DNA of 64,000 nt, from positions 930,001 to 994,000 of the forward strand of contig NGZR01000005.1 of assembly GCA_002197995.1 (NCBI GenBank), in the 5' to 3' direction. The position numbers and the translations under genes were made by a program. The DNA comes from Gaeumannomyces sp. JS-464 (Eukaryota > Ascomycota > Sordariomycetes > Magnaporthales > Magnaporthaceae). Below, in pieces: positions 5,500-50,449 of this stretch. The stretch's first letter is position 1; each line of letters starts with the position of its first letter. The notes below the pieces were generated by a model that saw only the letters and a program-made list of their open reading frames with translations, was not told the origin of the DNA and made no database searches.

Positions 5500-5840
5500 C
5501 ATATTGCTCGTGCTTTTTTTTTGTTTAAAAAAACACAATAATATTATTAAGGTATATTACGCAAATGTAATTAATAAAGCTTGCTAATATTTGGTATATA
5601 TAAATTTGGAAAGTAAACGAGGCGTTGGTTAATTCGAATGGCATTACGGTATATTTAAACAGCTCGTATTTGGTATAAAATGCTGTTTTCCACTTGTTTT
5701 CCAATCGAATGCGAATGCGATAATAAACATCCCGCAAGTTTAATTTGGAAAACCATTTAGCTTTCGCCAGCCTGTTTATTAAATCGGATATAAAGGGTAA
5801 TAAATAGCGGTTTTTGCGCGTAATTTGGTTTAAGGCTTAA
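5500..5840 (-). pseudogene. Reverse transcriptase core of gypsy pol
   Basis: The minus strand encodes a recognisable Ty3/gypsy RT block: KWFSKLNLRDVYYRIRI, then WKTAFYTKYELFKYTVMPF, then LTNASFTFQ, then VIYLNNIIVFF. The catalytic YLDD box reads YLNN: both Asp codons have become Asn, the G-to-A change expected of RIP. The frame stays open over about 70 codons (5525-5737). Enzymatically dead. Confidence 0.9.
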
Positions 5841-6352
5841 TAATCGATATATAAACGTAAAAATCCGTTTTTTTTAAGTACGAACAGCATTAAAAAGCCC
5901 GCGTTTACCTTTAAAAAGGTAATCCTTTTTAACGCGAGGTTTTTTTTAAAGTACTTTTTTAATACTGCTGTTTGTTTTTCCGAAGTTAAGTATAAGGCTT
6001 TTATAAAAAGCTTGGCTTTTTTTTTTTAGTTTAATAGTATGCTCGGCTTTTTTTAATAGCGGAAGCTTTTTCGCTTTCGTATTAGAAAACACGTTAGCAT
6101 ATGCTTACAATTAAAAGTCGAGCGGCTTTATTAGCTTTTCCTCGTTTTTCTCGTTTAACGCAAAAACTGCCGGCTCGTAAGTGCTTAGTTAGTAGTAAGC
6201 GGCTATTATATATCCTACTACCGCTTTTATAAGCTGGATTTAATATGCTAAGGATTTTACCGCTATAACGGCAGCCCATTCGCCTAGCTCGGGCATTCGG
6301 GCGGTATTAAACTCCTACGATTGGTTAATATTAAACAAGTTAATGCTTTTTT

Positions 6353-13899: not shown

Positions 13900-15430
13900 T
13901 GGGATTCAGACAAGGCACCGCACACAAGGCCTGATGCACTCGGAATCCTCATGCACGATTTCCGACTGTGGGATATAGAACATACGTAAGGCTCCGGAGT
14001 GAATAAGTAAACGTGTTCGGCATGTAGTCTGGGAGACATTGAACTGGTAGCCCGCACCATCAGTGACAGAGGCTGGAGCAAAGGCCGCATCTATTTCGAG
14101 TTGCCTGACAAACACGGACCTGATACGCCCGGGAAATGCAATCAACTTTCTCGACTTATATAGCTTTACGTATCTGGCTGCAAAGGTACTTGACGCAGGG
14201 CCGTCACTCTTCGGGAAGAAGAATATGCTTGGTGCTGGGCTACGGCGTAGCTCGAGATGCTGGTCTTGGGTGTCAGGCATTTTCCGCCGACCCAAAAAAG
14301 CATTAGGAGACGGTCTAGCGCTCCCTTTTCTGGAGTGCCATTCAATATGCTCCTGTATCTGAATGGGACTTCCAGGAGAGCCCCCGAGTAGCCGGCTGTA
14401 TCATTGCTGGGGCATTCAAGGGAAGTCTGCAAGCATGATACAACGGAGCGAGCTCCCATACACCAAGGCGGGCATGCGAATACCTCCTCCGGCTAATAGA
14501 TCGCGCTGAATTCAGCTACGCACAAGGACACGCATGCGAGCTCCAGGGAAACGAAAGACGGGGTCTACATCGTATCTATGGTATTCCGTCCAGTGTTCTT
14601 GATATAGCTTTAAGTATCACGCGCACGTCTAACTCTACTACCTCTCTGCTACCGGCTCCCAAGCTCCAATATCAAGCAGCGCCCCTCAGCGCCTGGTCAA
14701 CACTCCCAGTGCCCTTCCTCCTACCCCCTCCCTCCTGCCACCCCTCCCGCGGGCTCCCGCGGGACGGAGGAGGGGCTCTGCCTCGAAAGATCAGAAAATT
14801 CTACCCAGACCCCTGCTCCCGCCCGCCAACCACAGCAGTGAACCGGGCAACCTGACATGGGTCTTGCGTCACTGCCAAAAAAGACAACACGGCTCAGCCA
14901 ATGAGAGGCTCTGTAGTTAAAAAAAACATTGTCTTTTTTCACCAGATCAGAAAAAAAGCCCGGCTGCCAAATCAGTAAACGAGGGGCAGAGGGCAGCCTG
15001 GGTTTAAACTGAGGGCTCAGCAACCCTCCCAGCCCTCCCCAACTCTCTCCTCCGACACACCTTTTCCGCACAACAATGTTGGCCATCACCAAGCATCACC
15101 ACCACCACCATCATCCAGACTTCGCAGGCAGCGGTGCCATCTCTGGCTAGCACTCCTGCATCAGCTTCATCATGGCTAAGATCAACACTTCCTTTCCATT
15201 TCCCTGTCGACTGTTCTAACTCTCCATCTAGGGCCCCGCCGCGCTCCCACTTCTCGCCGGCATTCCTCCACCGACTTCCACCTCCATCACCTCGCTTTGC
15301 TGCCACGGCTAAGATCATTACTTCATTCCCCATCTGCTTTTTTTCTCTGCTTCTTGTCGACTAACTTTGTACTGGGTACACCAGCATCCCGCTTCCACCT
15401 CACAGCCATCTTGCCGGCGCCTACCTTGGC
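13900..15430. other. Spacer upstream of the snoRNA host locus
   Basis: A 129-codon minus frame (13906-14295) and others have no recognisable motif. 14700-15100 is CT-rich on the plus strand. (CAC)n/(CAT)n triplets at about 15085-15115 and pyrimidine tracts to 15400 could be promoter or leader of the snoRNA host transcript, but no start site can be fixed. Confidence 0.4.
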
Positions 15431-15479
15431 AGTAAGTTCATCCATCTCCGTATGTCTTTCTTGGCGCCTTGGTGGGATT

Positions 15480-15580
15480 GCGACTATGATGATATCAAAT
15501 ACACTACACCTCGTGAGGGAAACATTCTTTTTTTTCATTGCTTCCCAGTGGACATCCAATGAGAAGAACATCTGAGTCGC
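15480..15580 (+). ncRNA. Box C/D snoRNA 1
   Basis: Box C ATGATGA (15486-15492) and box D CTGA (15572-15575) are enclosed by a perfect terminal stem GCGACT/AGTCGC. A C'-like AATGAGA lies near 15558. The guide before D is short, so the D' side (about AATACACTACACC) is the likelier guide. Target not identified. Confidence 0.8.
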
Positions 15581-15867
15581 TTTCCTCCATGACGCGCTGT
15601 TTTTCAATTTTTTTTTTTTTCAATTTTTGTTTCAAAATTTTCCTTTTCAATTTTTTCCCTCCTCTTTTCTTCTCTTCTCTTTTCTGCTTGGCCCCCAGCC
15701 ACCTCTGCTAACCATCTCCTATTTTAAAGACAGCCTTTGACCCGGCCACCTTCGCCCTCATCGTCCTCGCTCCCTTCCCTCCGTCCTTCTTGTGTCCCAC
15801 AACCGCGCTTCTCTTGTTAGTATCTCCCCTTCCACTCCCGTCTCCCCTGGCTGCACGTGGTGGGTTC

Positions 15868-15975
15868 CTCGCAATGATGATCAAAAAAAGATACTACACT
15901 CCGAGTGCGAATCCACATTGCACCCCGTGGCTTCGCGCAATGACGAGAGTAGCAGCCACTTGGCACCTGAGCGTC
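15868..15975 (+). ncRNA. Box C/D snoRNA 2, D' guide complementary to U2 snRNA
   Basis: Box C ATGATGA (15874-15880), D' CCGA (15901-15904), C' near 15936 (AATGACG) and box D CTGA (15967-15970). The 12 bases directly before D' (AGATACTACACT, 15889-15900) are an exact complement of AGUGUAGUAUCU, the conserved branch-site recognition region of U2 snRNA (U2 recalled from general knowledge). The plus-five rule would place the methyl group on the U of AGUGU. The terminal stem is short (CGC/GCG). Confidence 0.75.
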
Positions 15976-16250
15976 TTCCCCACCACATCGTGGCCATCCC
16001 CCACCAACTTCCGACCAAGAATTGCAAAGATACTGTCACAAGTTTTTTACACTGGATCAGTCCAACACTGTCAACATCTTTGGTTGCTCCTTTCAGGTAC
16101 GTCCCCCCATTTCCCCATTTCCCCAGTATCGGGTCTCTGTCTGAGCCATATGATTCAATGCTGACTTTGCCAACTTTCCACCTCGACACCTCGCCATCGT
16201 TGCTGCTGCGTCCACGACCCCCACACCTTCCTGTCTCCTTTTTTTCAACG

Positions 16251-16370
16251 AGCCTCAATGATGACCAAAAATTTCTCTGTATCGTCGTAGGGTGGTTCTC
16301 GCCATATGCTCCGGCATTTGGCAAGTCCGTCCACCCCGTGATCGAAAACATACAAAGAATCTGAGAGGCT
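16251..16370 (+). ncRNA. Box C/D snoRNA 3, D' guide complementary to U6 snRNA
   Basis: Box C ATGATGA (16258-16264) and box D CTGA (16361-16364) with a perfect terminal stem AGCCTC/GAGGCT. TTCTCTGTATCGT (16273-16285) is an exact 13-nt complement of ACGAUACAGAGAA, the ACAGAGA-box region of U6 snRNA in most fungi and animals. D' is degenerate (around CGTA, 16286-16289), so the modified base could be the U or the first A of UACAGAGA. Methylation at that A is known in fission yeast, guided by a C/D RNA, as I recall. Confidence 0.78.
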
Positions 16371-16483
16371 CTCCACAAAAGTACTCCGCTAATTGCTTTC
16401 TCCGTCTACCGTAGTAAGTTTCCTTTCCAAAGTTTCTCTGCCCTAACCACCTGCTTTCCTCCACGTCACTGCCTTCCGCCCAA

Positions 16484-16594
16484 GAGCCACAATGATGACT
16501 ACAGTCTATCAGCTGTAGGATAGACCTAGCCTCCAGTCTTGGCTGTGGGCAGGTTCACCCCATGACCGCAACATTTTTTTTACCTGAGTGACTC
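16484..16594 (+). ncRNA. Box C/D snoRNA 4
   Basis: Box C ATGATGA (16492-16498), box D CTGA (16584-16587), terminal stem GAGCCAC/GTGACTC with one mismatch, C' ATGACCG near 16562. The sequence before D is a T-run and a poor guide; the D' side may be the functional one. Confidence 0.72.
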
Positions 16595-16918
16595 TCTGGC
16601 GCACATAGCAGTTCGCTGTTTTTCCACATTTATTCTACGACACCATATCCCAGCACACCCTTGTCCCCAGCCACGCTTCCACATACTATGAACACCACGC
16701 TAATTCTTTCATTCACAGGATTTCATTTCCAGCTAGCTTTCCTCAAGCTATTTCCCCCATGCTCGAGCGAGCCCCTCGTGGGCCTAGAAGGCTCGCTACC
16801 ATAGTAAGTGGCTTATGCAGCATCTCCTACTGTCATACCCCAATCCAGCGCCACCCTCCACCTACATCTCGGCATCTATGTGGCAGCAGTGTTGCCATGG
16901 TGATGCTGAGGGGCCAAA

Positions 16919-17030
16919 GAGTCGCAATGATGATCACCTCTTCGCTCAAAGGAGCAACCATACCTGCTTCAGTTTTACTGCGCAGGTCCGGACTCCCCGG
17001 TGATGAAAGGATCTAGGTTCTGAGCGACTC
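16919..17030 (+). ncRNA. Box C/D snoRNA 5
   Basis: Box C ATGATGA (16927-16933), C' GTGATGA (about 17000-17006), box D CTGA (17020-17023), perfect 7-bp stem GAGTCGC/GCGACTC. Guide before D: AAGGATCTAGGTT. First clear member of the group continuing to 18591. Confidence 0.85.
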
Positions 17031-17152
17031 TTCCGCCATGGATGACTGGTGACTCACTACTAACCAACTAGGCTACGTTTTCCATAAACCCCTCCCTCGT
17101 TATCTTCCACCTAACTGCAGCGCCAGTGCTCCTCGTGCTTGGTTTAGCACGA

Positions 17153-17263
17153 GAGTCGCGATGATGATCACCGCTTTGTTCAAAGGGCTAGCTGCGCCTG
17201 CGTGGTTTTCCATTGCACAAGTGCGAGGCCCAATGATGACAAAGTCTCTGTTCTGAGCAACTC
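17153..17263 (+). ncRNA. Box C/D snoRNA 6
   Basis: Box C ATGATGA (17161-17167), a full C' ATGATGA near 17233, box D CTGA (17253-17256), stem GAGTCGC/GCAACTC with a G-U pair. Shares a TCAAAGGG block after C and a GGTTTTCCATT block in the centre with neighbours. Guide before D: AAAGTCTCTGTT. Confidence 0.85.
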
Positions 17264-17385
17264 TTTGACCGTGAGCATCGGCTCAGGACTAACACGTCAC
17301 GGTAAGTACTTTTTTCAACCCCTTCTCCTTTGTCACCTGTTTTTCCCCCAACCTCTCGGCCCCGCCTTGGCCAGTGCCACCAGAC

Positions 17386-17493
17386 ATTCGCGATGATGAT
17401 CATCTCTTGGTTCAAGGGCGGCCGCACCTGCTTGGTTTTCATGTCGCAGGTGCGAACCCCCGATGACGACAAACTCTGGGATCTGAGCGACAG
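17386..17493 (+). ncRNA. Box C/D snoRNA 7
   Basis: Box C ATGATGA (17393-17399), C' GATGACG (about 17462), box D CTGA (17483-17486). An internal stem GCACCTGC/GCAGGTGC presents a GGTTTTCAT loop, similar to snoRNAs 6, 8 and 9. Terminal stem TCGC/GCGA. Guide before D: CAAACTCTGGGAT. Confidence 0.82.
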
Positions 17494-17625
17494 TTGCACT
17501 GAACGGCCCTTTCATCATGGCCAATGGCTCGCAGCTGATCCGCTATGGTATGTCTCCCCCACCCTGACTCCTACACAAGCTTCCGTTCCACGATCCTCCA
17601 TTTTTTCGTTGGCGGGAACGAGAGA

Positions 17626-17729
17626 GTCGCAATGATGAGAATATGCGCCCAATGGATTAGCCCGAACGGTTTTCATTGCCGGGCTGTCCAGTGGCGCGCA
17701 GAAAAGTACCTGTTCAACACCTGAGCGAC
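17626..17729 (+). ncRNA. Box C/D snoRNA 8
   Basis: Box C ATGATGA (17632-17638), box D CTGA (17721-17724), stem GTCGC/GCGAC. Central GGTTTTCATTGC block as in snoRNA 9. Guide before D: GTACCTGTTCAACAC. C' is not obvious. Confidence 0.8.
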
Positions 17730-17928
17730 GCCCATTCCACTCGCTAGCTTAGAGCACATCAACTTCAACCTTCTGCCAACTACCCGGATACCTACCATCT
17801 AGCCTAAGCGCCTGCCTGCATGGGTACCTACTAGCCTCCCCATCTCTCCTGGCAACCGGCATTGCCTCCAAAGATCTGGTATGTTGACCCCTACAGCCTC
17901 CTGGCCCATCCTCCCGGCACTAGCAAAA

Positions 17929-18035
17929 AGTGGCCATGATGATTTCGATATCGCTCCAAGGGTGAAGAGCGTCTGGTTGGTTTTCATTGCATCAGGCGCC
18001 CACCCGATGACCGACAAACATGGATCTGAGCCACT
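17929..18035 (+). ncRNA. Box C/D snoRNA 9
   Basis: Box C ATGATGA (17936-17942), C' GATGACC (about 18006), box D CTGA (18026-18029), perfect stem AGTGGC/GCCACT. Shares TGGTTTTCATTG and GGCGCCCACCCGATG blocks with snoRNA 10, so the two are recent duplicates with different guides. Confidence 0.83.
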
Positions 18036-18190
18036 CTCCCACCACAAAACCACAGTCTTCAGTTTTTTTGCTTCTGCTAATCAGTTGCCGCTTCTCTTCT
18101 AGCCAAAGATCAAGCTCTGCCTAGCTGGGTTTTGGCTCCTCTTATTTGGTAAGCCAAAATCCCTGTGCCTCACCCAGTCTGCCTGCGTCG

Positions 18191-18325
18191 TGGGAAAGTC
18201 GCCATGATGATCTGGATCAATCTGAGCTCTCAATCGGAGGGTGGAGTGCGTCCGGTGGGTTTTCATTGAAGCCGGCGCCCACCCGATGCCCGACAAAAAA
18301 GTCTGATTCTGAGCGACTTTCCCAC
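18191..18325 (+). ncRNA. Box C/D snoRNA 10 with a 13-bp terminal stem
   Basis: Box C ATGATGA (18205-18211), box D CTGA (18309-18312; another CTGA at 18303). The terminal stem GTGGGAAAGTCGC/GCGACTTTCCCAC is perfect over 13 bp, much longer than usual. Central blocks match snoRNA 9. Confidence 0.83.
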
Positions 18326-18459
18326 TGCGAAATTCTAGTACCTCAACTTCTCCTCTTCTGCTAACTAGCGTTTTCGTCTCAGCCCAGAATTGATATGAGT
18401 CCTGTCACTTTGGTACGTCGGCACTTCCTTGCCCTCCAGATCTGAATGCCAAGTGGTGC

Positions 18460-18591
18460 GAAAGTCTACATGATGATCACATATTTTGTTCTCTGTATCA
18501 AAGGGTGGGCACCCTGTTGGGCTTTTCCCCAGAGGGTGCCCACCCAATGCTGAAAGATTAAAACCGTTTCAAATTTATCTGAAAGACTTTC
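18460..18591 (+). ncRNA. Box C/D snoRNA 11
   Basis: Box C ATGATGA (18470-18476), box D CTGA (18579-18582), perfect stem GAAAGTCT/AGACTTTC. An internal stem (GGGTGGGCACCCT with AGGGTGCCCACCC) makes the centre strongly folded. It is the longest unit, about 130 nt. Confidence 0.8.
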
Positions 18592-18735
18592 CCATCACGG
18601 CGTCAGAATATCAACTTTTGTTCCTTCGCTAGCCAGCGCCAGCTTAGATGCTTCTTCCAGACTTTCTCACCACGCGCTATGGCCGTTTCTGTAAGTACCA
18701 GCCCATCCTTCGCGCCGACACTGGCGTGTGGTGGA

Positions 18736-18820
18736 AACTTTGCAATGATGACAACTATGGAATGCCTCGTGTGGAAACACAAATGGGAGCCTAACGTTTG
18801 CCGTGGTCTGAGCAATCTTC
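18736..18820 (+). ncRNA. Box C/D snoRNA 12
   Basis: Box C ATGATGA (18745-18751), box D CTGA (18808-18811), stem TTGC/GCAA. Shorter than its neighbours. Guide before D: CGTTTGCCGTGGT. Confidence 0.75.
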
Positions 18821-19232
18821 CCATCTCGCCTCACGTCACTATTTAGAAACGGCTGTGTGGTATTTTTGTTTGGGAATTGTTGCTAACCAGCCGTTTTTGT
18901 CCTAGACCCATCTACATTCTTTCGCCGTTGTTATTTGATACTTCCTGGTTCGCCACGCCCAAGCCTCCAGCCTCAGCCGCCACAGCCTTCCGGCACGGGA
19001 GCTTCGCTTAGCTTTAATGAAACACTGCCCAAGCCTCGACTGGAGGCGGAGATACGAGACAAGGTATGGCTCTTGTTCATCCGAGCCACACCCCCATACA
19101 GCCACTTGACACTCCCCTCCTACGAGCAAAGAGATGCCTGCTGACAAGTTGCCCACAGATGCTCCCTCCCGGGGCGTCATCCCAGCCTTTACTGGGTAAG
19201 AAACACCCAAACCATCACACCAGCACTTCGGC

Positions 19233-19330
19233 GGTGGTGGAGCGCGACGATGATGAGAAACCCGCAAATGTCCCGAGTGGAATGCCACTATGAGGGTCTA
19301 TATCAAGTCTTCTTTTTTGAGCAACGCACT
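19233..19330 (+). ncRNA. Box C/D snoRNA 13 with degenerate box D
   Basis: Box C ATGATGA (19250-19256), C' TATGAGG near 19289, but box D reads TTGA (19317-19320) in place of CTGA. The outer arms GGTGGTGGAG/CTCCCACCACC extend the closing stem. It begins the second similarity group (GAGTGG...CCAC-TATGAG core). It may be weak or non-functional. Confidence 0.6.
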
Positions 19331-19512
19331 CCCACCACCCTGAGCCTCCAGCGTTTTTCTGGCAGCAGGCCCTGTCTTGTCTTGCTGCTTCTGGGCGAGA
19401 AAAATACACGTGCTGACGAGTGCGTATACAGACAATATGATTTCCGGGCTTCTTCATCCCCTGCTCTTCCTTGTAAGTAGCCCCCAACTTACCAATCTAA
19501 CGCCCTGTACCC

Positions 19513-19617
19513 GGTGAGAGCGTCACGATGATTAGAACTACGCCTCCATCTCTTGAGTGGCTAAACCCACAATGAGAACCGAAATCTCATGTCTCTGTTC
19601 TGAGTGACGCTCTCACC
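19513..19617 (+). ncRNA. Box C/D snoRNA 14, variant box C, 14-bp stem
   Basis: Box C variant ATGATTA (19528-19534), D' TTGA, an internal GAGTGG/CCCAC stem, C' AATGAGA, box D CTGA (19600-19603). The terminal stem GGTGAGAGCGTCAC/GTGACGCTCTCACC is perfect over 14 bp. Guides: CTACGCCTCCATCTC before D' and TCATGTCTCTGTT before D. Confidence 0.75.
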
Positions 19618-19770
19618 ATCACGCATTGGTCTTTTGTCTGCGTGGTGGAGCTTCCTTGTCCCATCCCCATGTCCTTTGCAAGGCATCCACTAACGATTGT
19701 TCGCATAGGAAGCTCTAGTTCTCGTCATAACCCTCAAGGTAGAAACTCCCAAGCCAACCAGTCTCCACCT

Positions 19771-19858
19771 CGTCACGTTGATGAGGAAGTCGTTACATCT
19801 CCTGTGGCTCAAGCCACAATGAGGGCCTAGCATCTCTTTATCTGTCATCTGAGTGACG
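19771..19858 (+). ncRNA. Box C/D snoRNA 15
   Basis: Box C TTGATGA (19778-19784), internal GTGGCT/AGCCAC stem, C' AATGAGG, box D CTGA (19849-19852), terminal stem CGTCAC/GTGACG. Same core as snoRNAs 14 and 16 with different guides. Confidence 0.76.
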
Positions 19859-20038
19859 CACTCCCCACCACACTTCAACTTCTAATCACAGTGGAGGAAG
19901 TGTTGCTCCCTTCACTAGCCTAGCAAAAGGGCATCTGCTAATCAGTGCTCCTCGAGATGGTCCATTAGATTTTCTCAGCACAAAGCCCTGGGTAAGAGAC
20001 TACGAGCCAGCACATGTGTTCTCCTAGCTCCGGGCATC

Positions 20039-20126
20039 GGCGTCGTGATGATGACAAAAGCCATATCTCTCGAGTGGATCAATCCGCAATGAGAGTTCAA
20101 AAACTGTTTCTTGTTCTGAGCGACAC
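20039..20126 (+). ncRNA. Box C/D snoRNA 16
   Basis: Overlapping C boxes GTGATGA/ATGATGA (20045-20054), D' near TCGA, GAGTGG/CCGC core, C' AATGAGA, box D CTGA (20116-20119), stem GTCG/CGAC. Guides: AGCCATATCTC before D' and AACTGTTTCTTGTT before D. Confidence 0.78.
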
Positions 20127-20272
20127 ACTACTACTACCGTTGGAATTTGCAAATAACTATGTCGAAGGGGTAATCTGCTTACAGATGCTTACACACACAG
20201 GCCCATTGAACTCGTCCTCCCAAGCACTCCAGGTAAGAGACCCCCAAGCTAGCTCGTGCGGATCCCTTGCTC

Positions 20273-20377
20273 GTGGTGGCGGCGTCGTGGTGATTACAAA
20301 CATTTTCCGAGTGGCTTTTGTGGCCACAGTGAAAGATCAGCAAAGAACTCACTCCATCTGAGCGACGCTGCCACCAC
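20273..20377 (+). ncRNA. Box C/D snoRNA 17, variant box C, 15-bp stem
   Basis: Box C variant GTGATTA (20290-20296), GAGTGGC/GGCCAC core, C' AGTGAAA, box D CTGA (20358-20361). The outer stem GTGGTGGCGGCGTCG/CGACGCTGCCACCAC pairs over 15 positions with one G-U. Last recognisable unit of the array. Confidence 0.75.
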
Positions 20378-20719
20378 CTGACATCCCAGCTGTTTGTCTT
20401 ACAAACCATGCTGCCGATGTTAATTAGACCAATTTTGCCAACTGCTTCCGCTTCTATCCCACATGCTTGCCAGCGCCTTTTCACGAATCGTCGCGCCTAC
20501 ACTGCTGTCTCCCTCACACCTTCGGCGAAGAGTACAGCTACGAGGTTGAATCCCTGTTCGCCGTACATGCCTGCCAAGAGAAGTCCCTTCTTATTCCTCC
20601 TTGCCCAAACCCTCCCCGCCCGCACCAGACGGGGGCTGACTATCTGGGACAGTGTTTGATTTTCTCAGCCGCCATCCGGCCTTCTCGACTAGAGAAGAGC
20701 TGGTAAGCACTCGTTTCAC

Positions 20720-22490
20720 ATCTCCTCCTTTCCTTTTCTGGCTCCCCTTCAGCTCCACTACTCCACCGTTCTATGGCTTATAATCACTAACCGCCTCATT
20801 TGGCGGTCAAACAATAACTCAGAAGATATAGGCAGCAAGCTAACGTTCTATGTGCTGTACAGAGACGCTTCGATCGGATCTTCCTGCCAACCATCCCGGG
20901 GCACCGACCCCCGGGTGGCTTTCCTGCCTATGTATCCGAGCAACCTTGACCTCGAGGCCATGGCGCCAGGCGCGCCAAGCCGCCTAAACGCGCGGGGGAG
21001 CGACTCTCCTCGTCAAATTAAAACGGAGAAGGCTAGTCCCTCCACTCGGCACCCAGCCACTTCGCCACCTGAGGTCCGGCGGTCAAGTTCAATGTCGAAG
21101 ACCAAGGCAAGGTGAGTCACATCTTGAAATCAGAGCAGCGCGCTGGCGAGTGCCCAGGAAACAGACAAGCAGTGCTAACAAAGCTGCAAATTTCTACTAT
21201 GGTGCTTGGGTTGCCTTGTATGGTTGGCTTTCTGCTCCTAGCACTCTGTGGGCTTGGGAAATCGGTGCGGTGGACTGGGCTGTTTTTTTGGGGGATAGGT
21301 CTTGTTGGCTAATTAGAGAACTCTCTGAAATCTGTCTGTCCGTTCTTGCCCATGACTTCTGTGATATTGCATCAAGCGACGGCTCACTGATGACATCAGA
21401 GTTGATTTAACCTGCCGCCCTTCCCCTTCCGCCACCGACACGGGCAGCCTAAGACGATAGGGATGCCGAGGCAAGTCCAGGTCTCCCGGGAGTGCATCAG
21501 GTGTAGCCCGCATTGCTATTTGGTAGCCAGGCATAATATATATCCCCGACTCGGCAGGGCTATCTCCCTTGCGAAAAACTTGATTGGAGCAAGATTGATT
21601 CACATTGTGGAGGTGCGATGTTGCTTCGATAGGCGCAGCCGTGTGCCAGGTGTGAGGTTGTGGGATCCTCGCCAGCGCCCCACATGAGGCCAACTTTGCT
21701 CGAGCCGCAAGGCTGAAAGGTCTCGCCCATTTGATGCTCCCAAGACTTGCCAGCACACCCCGGAATAGTGTCATTGCATGATTTGGTTATGGTGCTTTTA
21801 CTTCTGTAGCACGTTTCAAGTAGCCGCTCGTTTAATACGTTGGGCGCGCGAATTTGGGGGCAGCAGATACCGTGCGCTCAGGGGAAAATCCGCCCCGGGC
21901 ATCACATGGGCGGGTGCATGGCTTGTGGCTAGCTTGTTTCCCATCCGCCCTCATATGAACCTTTATATTTCGGCACCGTCCACCCCGCCCCAGGTTTACT
22001 GGCTTTATTTTGGTGGTAGCTAGCCCTGGCGGGTGGCTCGTGCGTGACAACAGCATGGAGCATAATAGGCAGTTTGTTGCCTCGAGGCAAAGGCGGTCTG
22101 CCCTGGCCTTGGGAAATGTATGACTCTCGATGCGTGAGCAAGTTGACGAAATGCTGCCCGAAGCTGTGATTTATTCACGGCCTGCTAATGGAGTGCCTGG
22201 CTAGGCTTTGACGCCCAGGACTCGAGAGTCTGGAGACCGACAGATCTACGTGCCAGCTTGCAGTGCTAACACTCCCCCTATGCTAGCCCCCCCTTTACAT
22301 AAGCACGAGGCAGAGCTGGCATCGCTGAACTCGGTGCTCCCCCAGCAGCACTGGCCATGACCCCTCACACCGCTTTCTAAAACGGGAACACAAATGTTTG
22401 CAGAGAACGGCAGAATGTGTGATTTATTAGACCCGAAGATTTTCCTTCCCCTCACCACAAAATTCTTTCCAGCTTAACCAAAAACCCAGC
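20720..22490. other. Spacer downstream of the snoRNA array
   Basis: A GTAAGC donor at 20703 suggests the host transcript continues, but no further C/D unit is seen. Overlapping frames on both strands (for example 21313-21774 minus, 153 codons) lack motifs. Nothing else can be supported. Confidence 0.4.
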
Positions 22491-36722: not shown

Positions 36723-38996
36723 CTAGACTAGCGTTACTATCTTCTCCTGAGCCTTCAGCATTGTCTCCTGCTTCCCCTTCACCACGCCGACCCGCTCAAA
36801 AACGCCGTCTGAAACTTCCCGCAGCACAAGGCTAAAGAGCATCCAGAACCCGGTGATGTGCTTCTGACGCAGCGGCAGAATCCACGCGACGCCGCCACAC
36901 TTGTCCATCTCCTCGTAGTCGTCAACCATCACCGTCATGGTTACCATGCCGCGGCCCCCGGACCCGTCCCTACCCGCCGAGTGGATGCGCCAATACAGCC
37001 GGTCCGCCCGGTTCGTGTCGTTGGGAGGAATGAGCTCGTCGACAGCAGTCACCTTGGCGCCGGCCGGGATGGACTCCAGTCGCTCGCCGTGCGTCGAGCC
37101 GCCGACGAGCTGCGGCACATTATCGCTCCTATAGACCCTACTGCGTACGGGGCGGCCTTTGACTACCAGCTTCGCACCCGGAGCACTGGCGAGCGTGGAG
37201 CTGCCGACCCCCTCGATGCGCAAAACCTCCACCTCGTCAATGGTATCGTCGACAATGTCCTCGTAGCCGACGCCGTAGGGAAGGCGCACCTGCTGCCCGC
37301 TGGGGCCGAGCGGCGTGTCTGCCAGGCGGTGCTCAAGGCAGGCCCAAGACCACGACGGGGCGCGTCTGACAGAGGCGCGGCGCCTCTGGCGCCAGTACTT
37401 TCCGGAACAGTCCCATTCGAGCCCCTCCAGGATCCGGCTACGCCAGAGGCCGGCCACGTACGCGTCGTCGAGCAGGCGGGCCATGCGCGTCGCGAGGGCC
37501 GCGATGGCGGGGAACCGGTCCGACTCGAAGGTCAACGCGCGTCGCGAGTAGTCCTCGACCACCCGCTGCCATAGCGCGTAAGCTCCCTTGCGGTCCGCCT
37601 GGCTGAGCGTGTGCCCGTCGGCGGCCGCGGCACTGGCCAGCTCTTTGAGTCGGCGGATCTCGCCGCCGGCAGCTGAGAGGGAGTAGTCCCTGCCCGGGTT
37701 GCTGCCCAGGGAGTCGTTGAGGGACTTGGGGCTGTCGGGAGGCTTGGCCAGGCCGCCGGGGCTGGACTCGGAGGCTGCCATCTCTGCGCAGTCGAAGGAG
37801 ATCCAGTACGAGTCGAAGAAGAGGGTGCGGAGGGGGAAGATGCGCTCTTGCAGGATCCAGCCCCGGCTGTCGAGTTGTGACGTCGGTGCTTGGAGCCTGG
37901 GAGCTAGTTCGAGAACAAGTTTCTTGGTGTGGGACACCGGGCCCGGGACTTGAAGCGAGATAGGGAGCTTGAAGGGTCTTGTCGCACGCCCGTCTCTGGT
38001 GCGCCAGAGGCCGCCAACGCTCTCCGCCGACGCTGCAATGTTAAGTACCGCATTCTCGTAGTAGTCAGCCATGAGGGGGATCTCGTTTGCCTTGTCTGCG
38101 CCCGAGTCTTGCAGGATACACAGAGAGTCGATCCAGAGATAGCTTATCCCCAGCTTGCGCGTCGTCTCACAGGCCTCGGCAAAGGTCCTCGAGAGCTTGC
38201 TTAGACGAATACCTTTACCGCAAAGCTCATCTTCGTTGGAAGTCGTTAGGGTGTAGGGATTGTCGGGCGTCCATCGGTGGCTGAGTGTGGCATACTTAGC
38301 AACGCCGTTTCGAGCGCCAGTCTTGACTACCACGATGACCCCGTCCGGCTCCAGCGCGCGCGTAAGATCAAGAAGCCGAGTTGGTAAGACGCTGGCGGTG
38401 TGTGATCCCCATGTGCGGCGACAGCTCTTGTGGCTTTGGTGACACGTATCTATCCATCGCGCCGCAAGGCTCATGGCCGCATCGCTCCCGGTTGAATCGT
38501 CGATGGCCGGTACGGTGTCCAGCTTTAATGACTCCGGGTCAGGAGCGGCGGGCTCCCGGGGCGTGGGCTTGCCTCTGGCGGAATGCGCCAGGTCGTCGAC
38601 AAGCTGCTGGCCGGGGTCTTCTGTCCACCTGGACCTGCTCAGGATCTCGGGCTGGCCTATCCTGAGGAAGTCGGACCCGAGGGGGTGCATGAAGTGGACG
38701 GATGTAGGATAGTCGATCTCGTCTTCGTCCAAGTTCGCGAACTCCCAGTCGCCAGCGGGATATTGGAGCGAGAGCGTGACGTCTGGCCAAGGTTCTGACA
38801 GATGTTTGGTGTCCAGCCCCCACCGACGATGGCGGATGATGCCTAGCAACACAGCACAGACTGGACAGTTGCTGGCCTCGGCCGACCACTCAAGGGCTGC
38901 AATGTTGGGCTGCAGAACGGCCCTGAACTCGAGCTCGTCGCCCTCGGGTACCGGCATGAAGGCGATATTGCTGCAGATATGGCAAAGCGACGCCAT
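36723..38996 (-). CDS. HET-domain heterokaryon-incompatibility-type protein
   Basis: A single 757-residue frame. The N terminus carries the LCHIC...NCPVCAVLL cysteine pairs common in this family. The HET domain (PF06985-type) starts at residue 235 with YATLSHRW, continues through SKLSRTFAEACETTRKLGIS and YLWIDSLCILQDS (about 286-298) and ends with MADYYENAVLNIAAS. The C-terminal half, about 380 residues, is typical of HET proteins and without a named domain; no NACHT or repeat domain is attached. HET domains trigger growth arrest or cell death after non-self recognition between hyphae. The frame is intact, with no intron needed. The first ATG fits the family start. Beyond its own start lies an array of divergent small genes on the other strand. 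Confidence 0.93.
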   Translation of the reverse strand: MASLCHICSNIAFMPVPEGDELEFRAVLQPNIAALEWSAEASNCPVCAVLLGIIRHRRWGLDTKHLSEPWPDVTLSLQYPAGDWEFANLDEDEIDYPTSVHFMHPLGSDFLRIGQPEILSRSRWTEDPGQQLVDDLAHSARGKPTPREPAAPDPESLKLDTVPAIDDSTGSDAAMSLAARWIDTCHQSHKSCRRTWGSHTASVLPTRLLDLTRALEPDGVIVVVKTGARNGVAKYATLSHRWTPDNPYTLTTSNEDELCGKGIRLSKLSRTFAEACETTRKLGISYLWIDSLCILQDSGADKANEIPLMADYYENAVLNIAASAESVGGLWRTRDGRATRPFKLPISLQVPGPVSHTKKLVLELAPRLQAPTSQLDSRGWILQERIFPLRTLFFDSYWISFDCAEMAASESSPGGLAKPPDSPKSLNDSLGSNPGRDYSLSAAGGEIRRLKELASAAAADGHTLSQADRKGAYALWQRVVEDYSRRALTFESDRFPAIAALATRMARLLDDAYVAGLWRSRILEGLEWDCSGKYWRQRRRASVRRAPSWSWACLEHRLADTPLGPSGQQVRLPYGVGYEDIVDDTIDEVEVLRIEGVGSSTLASAPGAKLVVKGRPVRSRVYRSDNVPQLVGGSTHGERLESIPAGAKVTAVDELIPPNDTNRADRLYWRIHSAGRDGSGGRGMVTMTVMVDDYEEMDKCGGVAWILPLRQKHITGFWMLFSLVLREVSDGVFERVGVVKGKQETMLKAQEKIVTLV

Positions 38997-48558: not shown

Positions 48559-50449
48559 TCAGACCCTGGTGGTGTTATCACCAGCCTGCTCCTGCCTCTC
48601 CTCGCTAGGCGCGTCCGTGACGCCCGACTTCTCCCGCGTGGCGGCGACTGCGTCCTCGTCGGTGCCGACAGAGCCGCGCGGGTGGCCTGCCTCCTTGTCC
48701 TTGGCCGCGGCGGCGTCGGAGCCGCTGGCGACGCCCGTGGAGCTGTCGTCCCGCTGGGCGCGCGTGAGGTACCCGGGAGGCGTCCACTTCTTGGAGTTCC
48801 AGGGCTTGACGTGGGGCTCGCCGTACATGCGGTCGACGTTCTCGAGCGAGAGCATGCGCGACTCGTACAGGAAGAAGTAGACGAGCAGGCCGCCCGCCAG
48901 GTTGCAGGCGGCAAAGACGTAGCCGAACTTGAACGAGATCCCCGAGGTAGCGATGGGCGTGAGCAGCGACAGGAGGAAGTTGCCGAGCCAGTTGCCGGCC
49001 GTCGCGAGCGAGGCCTGCTTGGCGCGCGTGCGGAGGGTGAAGGTCTCGCCGATGACGACCCAGGCGATGGGACCCAGGTGCTGTGGATCAGAAATGTTAG
49101 CATCAAGCCATGAACAGTAATAGGAGCCAATGTGTGGGAGTGGCGAGACTAACCTGGCGAACGACGCGATGAACATGCAGGCCGACGCAATCATGACAAT
49201 GCCGGTGGTGGAGTTGGTCTCGGGCGGCAGGGCAGTGCCGACCGACGCGAAGACGGCCAGCCAAGCCGCCTGCCAGAAGGCACCGACGATCAGCGGCAGA
49301 CGACGGCCAAACTTCTCGACAACGTACAGGCCCCAGAAGGTGCAGAGGACGTTAACAGCGCCCAGGATAAGCTGGGTCTGGATCGGGTCCTCGATGCCGG
49401 CCGACTTGAAGACGGTGGCGCCGTAGTAGAAGAAGTAGTTGACACCGGTCCACTGCTGGGCGAAGTGGAGCGCGATGCCGAGAAGGGTGCGGTAGACAAT
49501 CTTGGGGATGCCCGCGGAGCCGCCGCCGCCAGTGAAGCACTCAACCCAGGTGCCAGTACCGACGCTGCGCTCGGTCTCGATGACTTCGCGCATCTCCCTA
49601 AAGTCCCTCTCGATCAGCCTGTTGCTCGGGTCGTCCTTGAGGCCGCGGAGGCGGGCCAGGCTCATGCGCGCGCCCTCCCAGTCGCCGCGTCCGCCGAGCC
49701 AGCGGGGCGACTCGGGGACGAACAGGATGCCGACGCCGAGGGGCAGGGAGAAGAGGATGCCGAGCCCGATGACAATGCGCCACGACGCGTCGTTGTCCTC
49801 GATGGCGCGGACGCCGTAGTTGATCAGGTTGGACACGAGGATGCCGAAGTGTGATGAGCAGCTGGTACGATGCCACGACGGCGCCGCGGATCTCGCGGGG
49901 CGAGCACTCGGACTGGAACATGGGCACGCCGACCGAGAGGTTGCCGACGCCGAGACCGGCGACGAAACGACCATCATCATGTGGACCCACGAGTTCATGG
50001 CCGTGATTTGGATGGTGTTGCCGATGATGAAGATGGCGACGCCGAAGCTCAGGCTGCGGCGACGGCCCCAGGCGTCGGCTGTGTAGGCACCCGAGAGCGC
50101 GCCAATCAGGGTTCCCAGGCTCATAAGCGACACCATGAGTGACTGCGTGATGGAAACCCACTCGGGGATGCCGTCCTTGTCCAGCGCGCCCGTCGCGAAA
50201 CGCCGCCGGAAGTCGTTAAAGATGAGCATGCCCGAAATCTGGCCCGTGTCATAGCCGAAGAGGAAGCCACCCATGGCGGTGACAGCCCCGAGGATCAAGG
50301 CCTCCAGACCGCAGTCGGCGCCATTGATCTTGATGGACCTGCGGATCGGGCCTGGTCAGCTATCTGGCGCCGAATAATAGTGCAACCGCGTATGCCAGCG
50401 GTGATGGGAATCAGTTCGGAGCCGAGACATACTTCTTACCCAACCCCAT
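48559..50449 (-). CDS. MFS sugar transporter (monosaccharide/H+ symporter type), frameshifted as given
   Basis: A sugar-porter family protein of about 590 residues, with 12 membrane helices expected. Exon 1 is only ATGGGGTTGG (50440-50449); an 88-nt intron (50352-50439) leads into GPIRRSIKINGADCGLEALI, then GAVTAMGGFLFGYDTGQISG. Family motifs: AWGRRRSL, VPESPRWL, GVNYFFYYGATVF, EKFGRRLPLIVG and ESRMLSLENVDRMY. The C-terminal tail is long and hydrophilic. A 73-nt intron lies at 49081-49153. Three single-base shifts are needed to read it through: a missing G near 49980, an extra base near 49847 and a missing base near 49075. In the shifted stretch the correct frame reads GRFVAGLGVGNLSVGVPMFQ. 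It is either a young pseudogene or an intact gene with sequence errors. Confidence 0.85.

Follow-up and report, generated by a model that had tools for sequence, protein, structure and literature searches.

The genome of the ascomycete Gaeumannomyces sp. JS-464 contains two adjacent box C/D snoRNA candidates, and the question is whether they and their neighbours could guide modification of the spliceosomal RNAs U2 and U6, and at which bases. The window analysed is the whole stretch of 64,000 nucleotides (contig NGZR01000005.1, positions 930,001 to 994,000 of the forward strand), and positions are counted from its first letter. The analysis points to three RNAs, named s02, s03 and s11, which are probably intron-encoded box C/D guides for fibrillarin-type 2'-O-methylation of U2 (s02) and U6 (s03 and s11). 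All three belong to a larger array.

15486..20361, + strand: array s01-s17, 17 candidate box C/D snoRNAs, whose host appears to be non-coding and to carry them in short introns

The candidates, all on the plus strand, were collected by a scan for C and D boxes joined by a terminal stem of at least 4 bp, together with inspection. The scan recovers 13 of the 17 (s15 with its C box displaced by 2 nt), while s02, s04, s06 and s13 come from inspection by eye; the D box of s13 departs from the consensus, and the annotated end of this RNA lies one base too far. The remainder of the window gives eight further scan rows on both strands, with stems of 4-5 bp. A motif resembling a 5' splice site is found within 200 nt upstream of 11 of the 17 members, and a branch point with an AG within 230 nt downstream of 13. 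There is no ATG open reading frame of 280 or more amino acids in the array, the longest one overlapping it having 156 on the minus strand, and the stretch is apparently an intron-rich non-coding host transcript. An internal C'/D' stem candidate is present in seven of the 17 members, several of these stems being weak. An Rfam search of the window yielded no match at the gathering level. Below threshold, between 13000 and 21000, a SNORD39/SNORD55 match covers s12 at 18723-18802 (E 0.05 for SNORD39), and the others have E values of 2.9-4.6, including snoZ119 over s11 (E 4).

The targets considered were the U2 and U6 genes of the same 53 Mb, 34-contig genome. There are three U2 loci: two hold full copies that are nearly identical, and the third holds a divergent copy that retains the segment matched by the guide. 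This divergent locus (L003, G000:C12:4036216-4036408, 74 bits) keeps the branch-recognition stretch and is a variant U2 or a pseudogene. U6 occurs at two loci that are identical across the RNA. The U1 gene was identified below its profile cut-off; the U5 profile search gave no match, its control being likewise silent. The set of snRNA genes, like a HET-domain protein encoded in the window, is what one would expect of a filamentous ascomycete. Local numbering starts at the first base of the Rfam match. From alignment to the human and yeast sequences, we take local U2 numbering to equal that of S. cerevisiae and to be human numbering plus one, and human U6 numbering to be local numbering plus nine. 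Likewise, A43 in the Arabidopsis numbering of U6 presumably coincides with or adjoins the last A of the ACAGAGA box and is not human A43. Duplex energies were compared with those of the best readable rRNA sites, the readable rRNA being 18S, 5.8S and roughly 1.4 kb from the 5' part of 25S. As a side observation, one 18S gene (L017, 5138-7308, minus strand) is about 2.2 kb long and matches a group I intron at 5799-6086; the 18S in L019 is shorter, and a single N within it perhaps marks an assembly gap.

The candidate U2 guide is the second member of the array.

15874..15970, + strand: s02, C box 15874-15880, D' box CCGA 15901-15904, C' box ATGACGA 15940-15946, D box 15967-15970
15889..15900, + strand: D' guide of s02, 12 of 12 nucleotides complementary to the genome's own U2 31-42; the D'+5 rule predicts U2-U35 (human U34)

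The C and D boxes of s02 read ATGATGA and CTGA. The guide AGATACTACACT stands immediately 5' of CCGA. The internal stem GTGCGAA/TTCGCGC (7 bp) starts right after D' and ends 1 nt before C', and the same helix appears in the predicted fold. The terminal stem, read by eye, has 3 bp and thus falls below the scan's 4-bp minimum, and the fold z-score is -0.97. The duplex with U2 has an energy of -17.4 kcal/mol vs. -11.2 kcal/mol for the best readable rRNA site; s02 is a candidate U2 guide that stands on the strength of its own duplex. Genome-wide, the pattern TGATGA-N3-27-GATACTACACT has at least one match, only s02 being found, and its reversed control has none; this count and the one for s03 below are for the C-box spelling TGATGA in 53 Mb and may be lower bounds.

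The next member of the array is directed at U6.

16258..16364, + strand: s03, C box 16258-16264, D' box CGTA 16286-16289, C' box GTGATCG 16338-16344, D box 16361-16364, 7-bp terminal stem
16272..16285, + strand: D' guide of s03, 13 Watson-Crick pairs and one G-U pair to the genome's own U6 27-40 (ACAGAGA region); the D'+5 rule predicts U6-U31 (human U40)

Here, too, the C box is ATGATGA and the D box CTGA, and the D' box CGTA agrees with CUGA in two of four letters. The guide TTCTCTGTATCGT lies at 16273-16285, and an extra T at 16272 makes the G-U pair. s03 has an internal stem of 6 bp in the expected D'/C' register and a fold z-score of -4.89. Its duplex with U6 reaches -20.2 kcal/mol, vs. 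-13.4 kcal/mol for the best readable rRNA site, and s03, like s02, is a candidate guide in its own right as judged by duplex strength. The pattern TGATGA-N3-27-TTCTCTGTATC has at least two matches in the genome, s03 and s11 being the only ones found, and none in the reversed control. A U6-like stretch in the D arm of s03 (9 of 10 nucleotides identical to U6) was not used, since 94 of 2000 shuffled arms equal it.

These results bear on the initial annotation, which was made from the letters of 15868-16370 alone and described two adjacent C/D RNAs there. Its coordinates and letters are as described, with the qualification that the terminal stem of s02 is weak. The 12-nt U2 complement that it placed directly before the D' box of the second snoRNA is borne out, as is the 13-nt complement of the U6 ACAGAGA region in the third, and alignment of both guides to this genome's own U2 and U6 reveals zero mismatches. 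Its notion of a tandem pair for U2 and U6 holds insofar as the two RNAs are neighbours; it is incomplete in that a further member of the array, s11, is also directed at U6, and with both arms.

18470..18582, + strand: s11, C box 18470-18476, D' box CAAA 18499-18502, 13-bp internal stem, C' box ATGCTGA 18547-18553, D box 18579-18582
18489..18499, + strand: D'-side complement of s11, 11 Watson-Crick pairs to U6 29-39; a D' box at 18499 predicts U6-A34 (human A43)
18565..18575, + strand: D-side complement of s11, 11 Watson-Crick pairs to U6 19-29, 3 nt before box D

s11 has the same C and D boxes (ATGATGA and CTGA), a terminal stem of 8 bp and a fold z-score of -6.05; its D' box CAAA agrees with CUGA in two of four letters. 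The last base of the D'-side complement, C18499, is also the first base of D', so 10 bp abut the box. The best-scoring pairing puts the box one base further on, at 18500, which would give U6-C33 (human C42), and because of this alternative register the predicted site of s11 is the least certain of the three. On the D side there is a mismatch at guide position 3, and the D+5 rule would give U6-A20. The U6 11-mer on the D' side is identical to that in s03, and the two arms of s11 jointly span 21 contiguous U6 nucleotides (19-39). The energies are -13.4 kcal/mol for 18486-18498 vs. -12.9 kcal/mol for the best readable rRNA site, and -12.2 kcal/mol for the D side vs. -11.7 kcal/mol for a rival 25S site. 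Since its arms barely surpass the best rRNA sites, s11 is not self-standing in the way that s02 and s03 are; the case for it as a candidate U6 guide is built on the pair of U6 matches that adjoin each other and on the recurrence of the 11-mer, not on the energy of a single arm. The alignment scores are 123 for s11/s10, 95.5 for s11/s03, 99.5 for s03/s05 and 95.0 for s03/s04. Because s11 aligns better with its neighbour s10 than with s03, the U6 guide that s03 and s11 have in common is not explained simply by duplication of one into the other, as far as these alignments indicate.

The chance of such matches was estimated on 34 arms, taken as the 32 nt after C and the 22 nt before D of the 17 RNAs (918 nt in total), against one copy each of U1, U2, U4 and U6, with U5 left out. 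Watson-Crick runs of at least 11 nt occur in five of the 34 arms. The mean is 0.089 with shuffled snRNAs and 0.092 with shuffled arms, and in neither null do any of 4000 trials reach five. For runs of at least 10 nt, the five arms compare with a mean of 0.36 for shuffled snRNAs (0 of 4000 reaching five); for runs of at least 9 nt the excess is smaller (five arms vs. a mean of 1.42, with 57 of 4000 reaching five). Two arms have runs of at least 12 nt, which is equalled in 0 of 4000 snRNA shuffles and 1 of 1500 arm shuffles, and one arm has a run of at least 13 nt, equalled in 16 of 4000 and 5 of 1500, respectively. In the window outside 14001-22000, 19 such 11-mers occur among 112000 positions, a density equivalent to 0.16 per 918 nt.

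One of the five arms, the D' side of s01, was discounted as a U2 guide, and four are then retained. Its 11-nt match to U2 143-153 (15513-15523) lies, as judged by eye, inside a GGGAA/TTCCC hairpin, lacks D'/C' geometry and has a 10-nt rival in 25S; its energy of -19.4 vs. -16.0 for the rRNA rival counts against dropping it. The D side of s01 (15560-15570) forms 10 Watson-Crick pairs and one G-U pair with U2 42-52, adjoining the s02 site on U2. This match was also rejected: it overlaps the likely C' box, again by eye, and opens with a mismatch.

Placement of the D' boxes was made without reference to the targets, by kink-turn geometry: D' is expected directly beside an internal stem, with a single nucleotide between the stem's other strand and C'. 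It gives CCGA at 15901 in s02, CGTA at 16286 in s03 and CAAA at 18499 in s11, and in all three the last base of the guide is a U, followed by a D' box that opens with C. In yeast, van Nues et al. reported that U is the preferred last guide base and that the 5' C of the box sets the site (PMC5389607). With D' placed by stem geometry, the 2'-O-methylation sites predicted by the +5 rule are U2-U35, U6-U31 and U6-A34 (human U34, U40 and A43).

These bases are known for other modifications. In human snRNAs there is pseudouridine at U2 34 and U6 40 and m6A at U6 43, and U2 has pseudouridine 35 in yeast (PMC7960923). The initial annotation had expected the sites at or next to bases usually known as pseudouridines in U2 or as methylated in U6. 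The first half fits, U2-U35 (human U34) being a pseudouridine in both yeast and human; the second fits only in part: the base predicted for s03, U31 (human U40), is a pseudouridine in human, and the methylated positions nearby, the base-methylated m6A43 at a distance of 3 nt and Am47 at 7 nt, fall within the duplex without being the predicted base (PMC7960923). As for ribose methylation, the three predicted bases do not figure in the human 2'-O-methyl list as excerpted (PMC7960923) or among the 2'-O-methyls predicted for N. crassa in the accessible part of that paper (PMC2780460). The Drosophila U2 methyls given in the consulted passages are 48, 41, 28 and 25, without the predicted U2 base (PMC6770171), and A41 is described as the sole 2'-O-methyl of S. 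pombe U6 outside the ISL (PMC10484740). The Arabidopsis list, in the portion compared, has U6-A43 in its own numbering and, taken without realignment, no entry matchable to the predicted bases (PMC8053127). A search of the available literature for Um34, Um35, Am43 and Um40 in U2 and U6 brought up only the N. crassa paper, where, in the part seen, Am43 is a tRNA site (PMC2780460).

C/D guides for U2 and U6 are already known in a filamentous fungus, N. crassa (PMC2780460). According to the main text of that study, CD29 (chromosome II) guides U2-Am31, a methyl shown by primer extension, and has a further target, 5.8S-A42; CD26 (U2-Gm183) and CD11 (U6-Am47) are both on chromosome I, the distance between them being absent from that text. 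s02 resembles CD29, which is SCARNA9-like, in being an apparently intronic fungal C/D candidate that pairs with the branch-site side of U2. However, CD29 uses its D arm (16/0) and U2-A31, whereas s02 would use its D' arm (12 nt) and U35 (PMC2780460). Human SCARNA9 (mgU2-19/30) and other C/D scaRNAs are likewise guides for U2 2'-O-methylation, with one site beside the branch-site stretch, but the SCARNA9 bases, Gm19 and Am30, differ from the base predicted for s02 (PMC7960923). By register, s02 is not an orthologue of CD29/SCARNA9 (U2-A31, human A30), its D' box giving U35. s03 and s11 are comparable to mgU6-47, S. pombe snoZ30 and N. crassa CD11 as C/D candidates against the U6 ACAGAGA box; those guides methylate the last A of the box (PMC7960923, PMC10484740, PMC2780460), whereas the pairing of s03 and s11 lies nearer the 5' end of U6 and predicts U31 and A34. 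By register, s03 and s11 are not mgU6-47/CD11 orthologues either, D'+5 being U31 and A34 (or C33), not A38. A genome-wide search for an mgU6-47-type guide pattern gave five matches vs. two in the control, none with convincing anatomy; the best, L030, has an 11-nt U6 complement (by eye), but a mere 40 nt or so separate its C box from the next CTGA, and its terminal stem is poor.

Non-coding, UHG/gas5-like hosts with several intronic C/D snoRNAs have been described in N. crassa (PMC2780460) and A. nidulans (PMC4046813). The array reported here has 17 candidates, compared with seven introns in the A. nidulans cluster (PMC4046813), and three of the 17 are snRNA guide candidates. Since CD26 and CD11 share chromosome I at a distance that is not given, the linkage of U2 and U6 guides cannot be called unprecedented. 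The differences from the known cases are the predicted bases, the double-arm match to U6 and the presence of U2 and U6 guide candidates side by side in one array; the predicted bases, and possibly the linkage, may be new.

According to the mechanism that we favour, the host transcript would be spliced and its debranched introns trimmed down to the C/D cores. Each D' arm would then pair with its snRNA, and the base opposite the fifth guide nucleotide would be methylated. In this way s02 would mark the branch-site-recognition stretch of U2, and s03 and s11 would mark the ACAGAGA box of U6 and the bases just upstream. The D arm of s11 could be a guide to U6-A20 or, more likely, an accessory pairing that anchors U6; extra pairing beside the target has been reported for yeast (PMC5389607) and Arabidopsis (PMC8053127) guides. 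Starting from the sequence, the box anatomy, the perfect pairing to the genome's own U2 and U6 and the rarity in the genome, all of which are in hand, we infer expression, processing, assembly, methylation and the exact bases.

The methylation-guide assignment is favoured because the pairing with the genome's own U2 and U6 is perfect and exceeds two nulls, because beside a TGATGA box these guides were found only in this array, and because s02 and s03 form duplexes with an advantage of 6 kcal/mol or more over the strongest readable site in 18S, 5.8S or the 5' part of 25S. It also has the precedent of CD29, with its primer-extension evidence, and CD11. It is weakened by the short terminal stem and unremarkable fold of s02, by the degenerate D' boxes of s03 and s11 and by the partial self-pairing of the D' guides. 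In the minimum-energy folds of s02, s03 and s11 the D' guide is partly paired internally, most strongly in s03, and the centroid structure of s11 lacks such pairing. A further weakness is that the compared 2'-O-methyl lists contain no entry matched to any of the predicted bases. That absence, in the lists consulted for human (PMC7960923), N. crassa (PMC2780460), Drosophila U2 (PMC6770171) and S. pombe U6 (PMC10484740), would suit RNAs that leave U2 and U6 unmethylated and act on them by binding, serving as antisense chaperones or as masks over the stretches that read the branch site and the 5' splice site before snRNP assembly. The targets are indeed functional stretches that need to be free for intron reading, and the arms of s11 match 21 adjoining U6 nucleotides. 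Yet the anatomy is that of a methylation guide, with the box placed for the +5 rule. Moreover, we know of no C/D RNA that masks an snRNA, and we consider such a role very unlikely.

Coincidence would be another explanation, the arms serving 25S rRNA, tRNA or nothing. The comparison was confined to U1, U2, U4, U6, 18S, 5.8S and the 5' part of 25S, near-equal rRNA sites exist for the arms of s11, and CD11 of N. crassa is one guide predicted for both 18S and U6 (PMC2780460). Nevertheless, five arms out of 34 have runs of at least 11 nt where both nulls give about 0.09, and the same U6 11-mer stands in two C/D RNAs but beside no other TGATGA box found; we consider this explanation very unlikely. 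For s02 there is the additional alternative of a drifted relative of CD29/SCARNA9-type guides that serves, or formerly served, U2-A31, in which case U35 would be off by 4 nt. s02 covers part of the U2 segment that the +5 rule implies for CD29 (16/0 at D, U2-Am31), and genome-wide searches with a CD29-type 15-mer and G-U-tolerant patterns revealed no other A31 guide. Exact or with one mismatch allowed, the 15-mer turned up at the three U2 loci and nowhere else, and the G-U-tolerant pattern with box D gave two U2 genes and two matches without CTGA, vs. one in the reversed control. However, the s02 guide stops at A31 itself, the geometry-placed CCGA puts U35 at position 5, and CD29 works by its D arm and s02 by its D' arm, so that this origin appears unlikely.

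A broader picture can be tentatively drawn, although we consider it less likely than not. One non-coding host gene might supply co-expressed C/D guides for ribose methylation of bases whose human counterparts are pseudouridine or m6A: U2-U35 for the branch site, U6-A34 for the 5' splice site, and also U6-U31. The spliceosome would then be tuned in both stretches with which it reads introns, by guides whose release from introns depends on the spliceosome itself. The branch site is read by U2-U35 and the 5' splice site by the ACAGAGA box of U6. Provided that the methyls exist, guide deletion in this fungus could reveal the effect of ribose methylation at reading bases on splice-site choice, and one could ask whether a ribose methyl replaces or blocks base modification. 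With three guide candidates in one array, a single deletion would remove all of them together.

The array may also hold signs of its own history. s05-s07 and s09-s11 (16927-18582) look like tandem paralogues with a common frame and diverged guide arms, the best-aligning pairs being s09/s10, s06/s07, s05/s07 and s10/s11, and guides in the array seem to have been retargeted following duplication. On the D' side of s10, the closest paralogue of s11, positions 18224-18235 are a 12-nt perfect complement to the genome's own 18S 1611-1622 (numbering of the intron-containing copy), and the U6 guide of s11 occupies the equivalent place; by rough arithmetic, a single 12-mer to 18S is near chance level. 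The sequence GTCTCTGTT before box D is common to s06 (17244-17252) and s14 (19591-19599), whose D guides can pair with one and the same 18S site, a possible target, through a perfect core of 9 nt in s06 and 7 nt in s14. Elsewhere in the window, the minus strand has a HET heterokaryon-incompatibility domain protein at 36723-38996 and a sugar transporter at 48559-50274.
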